Origin: Candidatus Woesearchaeota archaeon
GTDB taxonomy: Archaea; Nanobdellota; Nanobdellia; Woesearchaeales; GW2011-AR4
Assembly (NCBI GenBank): GCA_016184145.1
Contig: JACPDF010000027.1
Span: 1-43,345 of the forward strand
DNA length: 43,345 bases
Direction of reading: 5' to 3'
Part shown: in pieces, positions 9,527 through 38,451 of the stretch
Layout: each line of letters opens with the position of its first letter
Position numbering within the stretch: the first letter of the stretch is position 1
Made by a program: the position numbers and the translations under genes
The notes under the pieces: model-generated
The model's input: the letters and a program-made list of their open reading frames with translations, nothing else
Databases searched by the model: none
What the model was told of the DNA's origin: nothing

Positions 9527-9799
9527 GAAAATTCCGATTGCGCACATTCATTACTTTAGCCTGGAACAAGCAATCGGAATTTTCGGCACACTTAAAAATC
9601 TACAATGCAGATTTTTGGTGTCCCAGAAACGCTTTGCGTTTCTCAGGATGCTCAAAAACACGCCCCGCACTTTAGTGCGGGGTTGTTTTTGACATTTTTC
9701 TTTCCAAAACCAGCAGAAAGCAGAGCTTTCTAGGTATTTGGAATTTCCGAGAAATTTTCCAAAACCAGTGGAAACAAAGTTTCTAGGTTTCGAAAATTT
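9527..9799. repeat. Cluster of consecutive inverted repeats/hairpins
   Basis: 14-bp IR 9527-9540/9571-9584; AAAAATCT/AGATTTTT 9594-9616; AGAAACGC-TTT-GCGTTTCT 9625-9643; CAAAAAC..CCCCGCACT..AGTGCGGGG..GTTTTTG 9653-9691; 9702-9743; 9752-9799. Confidence 0.85.
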
Positions 9800-14830: not shown

Positions 14831-14932
14831 GGGGCTGTAGTGTAGCTTGGTCGATGCAGTTTCGTGCTGCGCGGAGCAATATCACCCGAGGTTCGGGGCC
14901 TCGTAACCTGAGTTCGAATCTCAGCAGCCCCA
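14831..14932 (+). tRNA. tRNA-Pro(CGG) with about 29-nt insertion (probable intron) in the D-loop
   Basis: Acceptor GGGGCTG/CAGCCCC; D stem GTG/CAC; anticodon arm CGAGG-TTCGGGG-CCTCG; T arm CTGAG-TTCGAAT-CTCAG; extra sequence near 14852-14880. Confidence 0.8.
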
Positions 14933-37547: not shown

Positions 37548-37677
37548 TAGCCCCGGGCAGACTTTCGCAAAAGATTTGGTTCGAACTGCCGTCAGAGCCT
37601 TTCTATTGCATTTTCATGCAACCAGAGGGCCCTATCCTTGACCGCTAGATTCCGCGAGCATGACTCTCTACGGGGCT
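37548..37677 (-). tRNA. tRNA-Gln(CTG) with three putative introns
   Basis: Acceptor AGCCCCG/CGGGGCT+A; D stem ATCT/GGAT; anticodon stem GGGCC/GGCTC; T stem GGCAG/CTGCC; extra 18, 21, 18 nt; 130-57=73 nt mature. Confidence 0.8.
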
Positions 37678-37749
37678 AAAGCGTCTTTAGCGGGGCTATA
37701 TAGAGTAATCCCAGAAATAAATCTCTTTTAAATATGTTTTGTTAAACTC

Positions 37750-38451
37750 TTAAGCAGCAGTCAAAGGCTCTTCCTGCGCTTTCTTTGCAGGCTCTGGCTT
37801 TGCATCCTCGAGGTTTTTTTCGTCCTTTGTTTTTTCGTGCTTCGCCTTCTTTTTCGCAGCAGCTTCTTGCTTTGGCGCACTTTCCTCTTTGATAGCCTTG
37901 GAAATCTGCATTGACCTTATCTCGCATATTCTTAGCGGATATATCTTATTCAGGCTAGCTCTTAATAAGTCCTGCAGCTTATGAGTTATAAGGTCGTTAG
38001 CAAGATTGTCATAGCTTATTCCTTGGACATACTTTATGATAAAGTCCTCGGCATTCCTCCTTATTTTTGCCCCTACAGAAGAGCTTACTGCAGACCTTGT
38101 TATTATCAAAGGCTTTATCCTCAGGTTTTTATTGTCTGATGTAGAGCATGAGAATGACATATCAATCTTTTCTATATTCCTCCTTACAAGCCTTTTTACA
38201 GAGGAAGGAACCATTTTATAGCCGGTAATTTCTGTAAGAGCCCTGTTGTTCTCGACATTAACAACCTCAAAGACTACCTTTATGTTCTGCTTTTTTACAT
38301 CGTTTGTAAGGTTCATGAGGTTCTCGCTCATGCTTTTGCCTATCATCTTATTGGGATCGTATACAATAGTCTCCCCTATAACCGCTCCCCTGAAAATTTT
38401 GGGAGCTATGATCGGATACCATTCTTTCTTTGCTACTTTGGGTTTTGCCAT
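37750..38451 (-). CDS. rps3ae: Ribosomal protein S3Ae
   Basis: KKEWYPIIAPKIFRGAVIGETI; IRMAKIC-like IRSMQISKA. Confidence 0.93.
   Translation of the reverse strand: MAKPKVAKKEWYPIIAPKIFRGAVIGETIVYDPNKMIGKSMSENLMNLTNDVKKQNIKVVFEVVNVENNRALTEITGYKMVPSSVKRLVRRNIEKIDMSFSCSTSDNKNLRIKPLIITRSAVSSSVGAKIRRNAEDFIIKYVQGISYDNLANDLITHKLQDLLRASLNKIYPLRICEIRSMQISKAIKEESAPKQEAAAKKKAKHEKTKDEKNLEDAKPEPAKKAQEEPLTAA

Follow-up and report, generated by a model that had tools for sequence, protein, structure and literature searches.

A tRNA-Gln(CUG) gene with three introns in a Woesearchaeota genome, and a possible folding role for its antisense 5' leader

In the Thermoproteales, a single tRNA can carry up to three introns bounded by bulge-helix-bulge (BHB) motifs, at canonical as well as noncanonical positions and 59/60 among them (PMC4090602), and P. 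calidifontis has 71 introns in 46 tRNAs (PMC8450103). Noncanonical introns go with CSL or ASL loops in the splicing endonuclease EndA (PMC4090602, PMC12397907, PMC6379350), and archaea with alpha4 or alpha2 enzymes have introns in fewer than 10% of their tRNAs (PMC4090602). The textbook link between enzyme and intron holds that multiple noncanonical introns need a loop-bearing EndA of relaxed specificity and that alpha4 archaea are intron-poor. The lineage described here appears to break that link. In the open-licence literature searched, we found no account of tRNA introns in this lineage or of an antisense leader like the one reported below.

The window, meaning the whole 43,345-nt stretch of Woesearchaeota DNA that was analysed, carries on its minus strand a tRNA-Gln(CUG) gene (37677-37548) that is 130 nt long unspliced and has three introns, together 57 nt, at 10/11 (18 nt), 37/38 (21 nt), and 59/60 (18 nt). 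Its 73-nt spliced product is AGCCCCGTAGTCTAGCGGTCAAGGATAGGGCCCTCTGGAGGCTCTGACGGCAGTTCGAATCTGCCCGGGGCTA. The gene and its surroundings comprise the following parts:

37750..38451, minus strand: rpS3ae gene, 72 nt upstream of the tRNA, the syntenic anchor for orthologous loci
37727..37734, minus strand: TATA-like box TATTTAAA, its center 53 nt 5' of the tRNA (comparison with orthologues)
37678..37697, minus strand: 5' leader element AGCCCCGCTAAAGACGCTTT, found in 11/11 tRNA-Gln genes with intron A and 1/27 without it
37668..37677, minus strand: exon 1, tRNA positions 1-10, AGCCCCGTAG (compared with intronless L009/L065 and single-intron L068)
37650..37667, minus strand: intron A at 10/11, 18 nt, AGAGTCATGCTCGCGGAA (orthologue comparison and BHB scoring)
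37622..37649, minus strand: exon 2, positions 11-37, anticodon CUG at 34-36 (alignment to mature templates)
37601..37621, minus strand: intron B at the canonical 37/38 site, 21 nt, TTGCATGAAAATGCAATAGAA (orthologue comparison and BHB scoring)
37580..37600, minus strand: exon 3, positions 38-59 (alignment to mature templates)
37562..37579, minus strand: intron C in the T-loop at 59/60, 18 nt, CCAAATCTTTTGCGAAAG (orthologue comparison and BHB scoring)
37548..37561, minus strand: exon 4, positions 60-73 (alignment to mature templates)

A first-pass annotation of the same DNA had proposed three introns here, and both the alignment of orthologues and the BHB motifs bear this out; removing the 57 nt does leave a canonical 73-nt tRNA, as it had supposed, and that product is identical to the spliced tRNA of relatives. 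Its intron lengths and its placements at 37/38 and in the T-loop (59/60) stand, but the intron that it put at positions 8-10 actually lies at 10/11. The leader element at 37678-37697 was absent from its description of the locus. The archaeal tRNA-Gln identity marks are all present (CUG at 34-36, an A1-U72 pair, and discriminator A73), and the four exons are collinear within 130 nt, unlike those of a split or permuted tRNA gene. Neither ARAGORN nor Rfam, the latter at its gathering cut-off and even at E up to 5, reports any tRNA in the window, because the introns defeat standard models. Judged from sequence, the gene is very probably functional and single-copy, with BHB introns at 10/11, 37/38, and 59/60, and it is one more of the archaeal tRNAs with BHB introns, an established class. 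It is set apart within that class by its lineage, by the type of EndA in its genome, and most of all by the antisense leader linked to the 10/11 intron.

Orthologous loci were sought through the rpS3ae anchor in 36 genomes of the family, 28 of which have the gene, with a tRNA-Gln(CUG) nearby in most; outside the genome itself, the best named matches to rpS3ae come from "archaeon isolate ARS102", at 60% identity, and from a Candidatus Woesearchaeota MAG, at 39%, which suggests a Woesearchaeota-like DPANN archaeon. Intron sites were placed by aligning each tRNA-Gln gene to mature templates, and splice calls at 41/42 and 44/45 (L102, L131), at 62/63 and 70/71 (L104, L113, L115, L120), and at 8/9 (L073, L081-2159) were disregarded as alignment artefacts. 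At the same syntenic place beside rpS3ae, one relative (L009/L065) has an uninterrupted 73-nt tRNA-Gln(CUG). The spliced sequence recurs at no fewer than eight other loci, among them L068, L074, L078, L079, L086, L087, and L106, and that of L075 is one base off the window gene's. The introns are present or absent independently of one another: only 37/38 is interrupted in L068 and L075, which is joined by 10/11 in L074 and L106, by 21/22 in L078, by 20a/20b in L087, by 20a/20b and 59/60 in L079 and L086, and by a D-loop intron and 59/60 in L070. Exons that are letter-identical across genera, combined with introns that vary in sequence, length, and presence, form the pattern expected of functional spliced genes.

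A second, intact tRNA-Gln(CUG), which the first-pass annotation had named as grounds for giving up its reading, was not found when the 1.0-Mb, 97% complete genome was searched with the spliced sequence. The other matches were a tRNA-Gln(UUG), located on contig 14, and 19 bases of T arm within a different tRNA. This tRNA-Gln(UUG) (G000:C14:9900 downwards, minus strand; L098, L160) has introns of its own, one at 37/38 and one of ~150 nt at 59/60, and lacks an antisense leader. Elsewhere (L064, 2410-2608), an intact tRNA-Gln that has no introns is preceded, at a distance of ~125 nt, by a partial tRNA-Gln 5' end, AGCCCTGTATCGTACCGGTCC.

Every junction carries a BHB motif, the absence of which the first-pass annotation had named as a second ground against its reading. 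All three have a 3-nt bulge, a 4-bp helix, and a 3-nt bulge, with the central H helix paired at 4/4 (10/11), 3/4 (37/38), and 4/4 (59/60) positions. The 59/60 junction forms the complete hBHBh' motif (h GGCAG:CUGCC, H UUCG:CGAA, bulges AA^C and AG^U, h' CAAA:UUUG). At 37/38, the outer helix is GGGCC:GGCUC, the H helix CUCU:AUAG with C34 mismatched, the bulges GG^U and AA^A, and the inner helix UGCAU:AUGCA. The 10/11 motif consists of H CCGU:GCGG, bulges AG^A and AA^U, and h' GAG:CUC; the tRNA body itself supplies no outer helix. When each intron was shuffled 200,000 times, with exons fixed and sites fixed by comparison, the observed center and inner helix were matched by 0.029% (10/11), 0.075% (37/38), and 0.024% (59/60) of shuffles. 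In the 10 other genes with a 10/11 intron, the center CCGU:GCGG is constant and the inner helix covaries on both sides (e.g., GAGAU:AUCUC in L074 and AGAAUAA:UUAUUCU in L110).

Interruption is typical of tRNAs in this genome. An intron-tolerant scan of 20 stretches plus the window, ~40% of the genome, recovered 17 tRNAs, 16 of which exceed the expected length; tRNA-Ser(CGA) alone carries no insert. Six shuffled control stretches gave zero matches. A 59/60 intron with a 4/4 H helix occurs in 10 of the 17, 4/4 pairing having been a condition of the search. Three introns in one tRNA had been thought unusual for such an archaeon, a view that does not hold for this lineage, where relatives share them in varying combinations and 16/17 sampled tRNAs are interrupted. 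Above the Rfam cut-off, the whole genome has 8 tRNAs, its sister genome 11, and members of the family 11-22, compared with 34-42 in three genomes from other families of the order (G013, G015, G019). Set beside the 17 found by the tolerant scan in ~40% of the genome, the Rfam count of 8 indicates that tRNA numbers in such MAGs are strongly underestimated; annotation overlooks most of these tRNAs, and what looks like tRNA loss in genomes of this kind can be artefactual.

Several other features were observed along the way. At 14831-14932 (plus strand; L008), the window has a second interrupted tRNA, probably tRNA-Pro, 102 nt long and overlapping a spurious 99-aa ORF. At 9653-9747 (minus strand), a strong G+C-rich hairpin (CCCCGCACU...AGUGCGGGG) is followed by T-rich sequence and bears a weak likeness to an operon-leader terminator (E 1.1, below the cut-off). 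In L104, L110, L115, L120, L125, and L113, a hairpin and then a copy of the tRNA 3' end (~TCTGCCCGGGGCTA) lie ~50-130 nt 3' of tRNA-Gln(UUG), and L125 has two extra such copies downstream. These copies may be scars left by integration, may serve as a decoy 3' half, or may be an intermediate on the way to T-loop introns.

The 5' leader of the window gene contains AGCCCCG, complementary to the 3' acceptor strand C66-U72, with which it is predicted to pair in the precursor. A pattern search for the 3' half of the 10/11 intron plus the D arm gave 10 matches in 9 of the 353 genomes of the order, and an eleventh 10/11-intron gene, L117, came from the UUG search. Six of these 11 tRNA-Gln genes, including L109 from another family, are of the CUG type and five are of the UUG type. 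The CUG genes share the leader (A/T)GCCCCG(C/T)T...GAC; that of the UUG genes, UCGGCAGAUUCG or, with a wobble change, UCGGCGGAUUCG, is the complement of the T arm's 3' half and runs on to the acceptor. There are at least two leader types. In folds of 28 nt of leader plus each precursor, the predicted pairing between leader and 3' acceptor was 0.40-0.98 in 11/11 genes with a 10/11 intron and 0.00 in 26/27 genes without one, the exception being L125, which has a D-loop intron and a UUG-type leader but no 10/11 intron. The association (11/11 versus 1/27) gives a Fisher p of 1e-8, a value that overstates independence since the genes are related. Against shuffled leaders, the duplex energies of the GC-rich CUG leaders do not stand out (p 0.17-0.53). 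TATA-like boxes are centered at about -29 in most genes without a 10/11 intron and at -39 or beyond in genes with one; that of the window gene, at -53, is ~24 nt further out than usual. This upstream displacement suggests that the leader is probably transcribed. The 10/11 intron and leader of the window gene (37650-37697) are nearly identical to those of L106, which comes from another genus (genome G034), while the 37/38 introns of the two genes differ; transfer or gene conversion of the 5' part of the tRNA is a possible source of the likeness.

Folding models point to what such a leader could do. The 10/11 motif takes up the 5' strand of the acceptor (C5C6G7U8 paired with intron GCGG) and so cannot coexist with the acceptor stem. 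When the window gene is folded without its leader, the acceptor stem has a probability of 0.97 and the 10/11 H helix one of 0.00; adding the native leader raises the latter to 0.61. With their own leaders, the corresponding values are 0.98 in L102 and L104 (the latter with its 3' end corrected), 0.96 in L074 and L109, 0.94 in L105, 0.92 in L117, and 0.63 in L106; L110 varies over 0.15-0.83 with the length of leader included. L073 and L081 behave otherwise: their leaders, too, are predicted to lie on the 3' acceptor strand, yet the H helix reaches only 0.01 and 0.07. Leaders were also exchanged in silico: those of four orthologues that lack the 10/11 intron give the window gene an H helix of 0.00, and those of L074 or L109 give 0.97. 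Deletion of the anti-acceptor part of the leader returns it to 0.00. Pairing of leader CCGCUA with D-arm UAGCGG, considered as an outer helix for the 10/11 BHB, was rejected, as deleting the segment leaves 0.94.

We suggest that, in the precursor, the antisense leader would capture the 3' acceptor strand and thereby free the 5' strand for the 10/11 motif. The single alpha4-type EndA would then cut each motif and an RtcB-type ligase would join the exons, after which the true acceptor stem would displace the leader, to be removed by RNase P; the parts given to EndA, ligase, and RNase P follow known archaeal biology, and an RNase P RNA gene is present in the genome (150 bits). Since the leader is still on the 3' strand in the modeled fold of the spliced product (0.86), its release would have to depend on strand displacement, tertiary folding, or RNase P. 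With a probability of roughly 0.5, then, the leader acts as a cis-acting folding switch that sequesters the 3' acceptor (CUG genes) or the acceptor plus T arm (UUG genes), enabling the 10/11 motif, and is later displaced and removed. Such a switch would have arisen with two or more unrelated leader sequences, and in a DPANN lineage where a loop-less alpha4 EndA serves tRNAs that are nearly all interrupted. If confirmed, it would show how an intron can persist where forming its splice motif comes at the expense of the acceptor stem.

The closest competitor to a folding role is that the leader has no function and is an accident, either of common descent or of a recombination that copied the tRNA 5' end upstream, and we give this a real, if smaller, chance. 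The CUG-type leader does copy the acceptor 5' strand, the near-identity of leader and 10/11 intron between the window gene and L106 spans different genera, and partial copies of tRNA ends lie near other tRNA-Gln genes. An accident would leave unexplained, however, that the UUG genes attain the same complementarity, against T arm and acceptor, with an unrelated leader sequence, that L117 keeps its complementarity through an A-U to G-U change, and that promoters are displaced so as to include the leader. The copying also takes the form of a direct repeat, AGCCCCG at 37691-37697 and again at 37671-37677, with the correct positions 8-10 coming after the second copy, and it could be argued that the upstream copy is the true 5' end and the second copy part of a fourth intron at 7/8. 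This is very improbable: the repeats would put GCCC against GCCC in the H helix, where they cannot pair, the upstream copy starts with T in L073, L074, and L109 and would have no pairing with U72, and the leader of the UUG genes is different and not a repeat. The silence of standard tRNA finders at the locus might instead be read as a sign of a decayed pseudogene with insertions, its work done by another tRNA-Gln. That is scarcely credible for a gene whose exons match several other genomes exactly and whose insert ends obey BHB geometry, in a 97% complete genome that has no further CUG copy and whose UUG gene is interrupted at 37/38 and 59/60 as well.

A different explanation, offered in the first-pass annotation, places the cause in the enzyme: a crenarchaeal-like EndA of relaxed specificity would have allowed noncanonical introns, as in the Thermoproteales. 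Multiple noncanonical introns do usually accompany (alpha-beta)2 or epsilon2 enzymes (PMC4090602, PMC12397907), and the best PDB match of the EndA encoded here (L018) is the N. equitans alpha subunit 3IEY (1.2e-38). The architecture of the enzyme, which the same annotation had listed as something to check, makes relaxed specificity unlikely. A single EndA gene is present, coding for about 192-214 aa, with an N-terminal PF02778 and a C-terminal PF01974 domain, and no second PF01974 gene even at E up to 10; the protein aligns over most of its length with the M. jannaschii alpha4 enzyme 1A79 (3.6e-33). Between the YG motif and LSLIEA, where we take the CSL/ASL insertion site to lie, it has no insertion, and the length of this segment is the same, within one residue, in 19 related EndAs from genomes with few or many introns. 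The features of an (alpha-beta)2 or epsilon2 enzyme (a second subunit type or fusion, a CSL/ASL loop) are lacking in L018, and those of the alpha4 type are present, namely a subunit of the ~180-aa class, N- and C-terminal domains, and the Y-H-K triad. By sequence it is an alpha4-size, loop-less enzyme, presumably tetrameric. The motifs are also strict, which argues against relaxed cleavage; pervasive introns alongside an EndA of narrow type are consistent with a motif that stays strict while its position is free. Whether the enzyme or the motif limits the spread of tRNA introns becomes testable here, with one enzyme and few substrates.

Compared with known systems, the genome resembles the Thermoproteales (Pyrobaculum, Thermofilum) in its multi-intron tRNAs and near genome-wide interruption. 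It differs from them in being a distant DPANN lineage, in its single alpha4-size EndA without a CSL and its strict BHB motifs, and in the 10/11 position with its antisense leader, a position not named in the published site lists consulted. Noncanonical tRNA introns in ultrasmall archaea are shared with ARMAN (Micrarchaeum; PMC4033280), which has a three-unit epsilon2 EndA with an ASL rather than an alpha4-size enzyme. The split tRNAs of Nanoarchaeum equitans and Caldivirga offer a parallel for the leader, in that leaders or trailers complementary to another RNA segment help to build the BHB (PMC4033280, PMC4090602); here, in contrast, a single transcript contains all the parts, and its leader would pair with the tRNA's own 3' half, freeing a motif and not joining halves. 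The enzyme itself resembles the alpha4 EndA of M. jannaschii (1A79), with similar size, both Pfam domains, the Y-H-K triad region, and no specificity loop. Yet where archaea with alpha4 or alpha2 enzymes have introns in <10% of their tRNAs (PMC4090602), almost all sampled tRNAs of this genome are interrupted.
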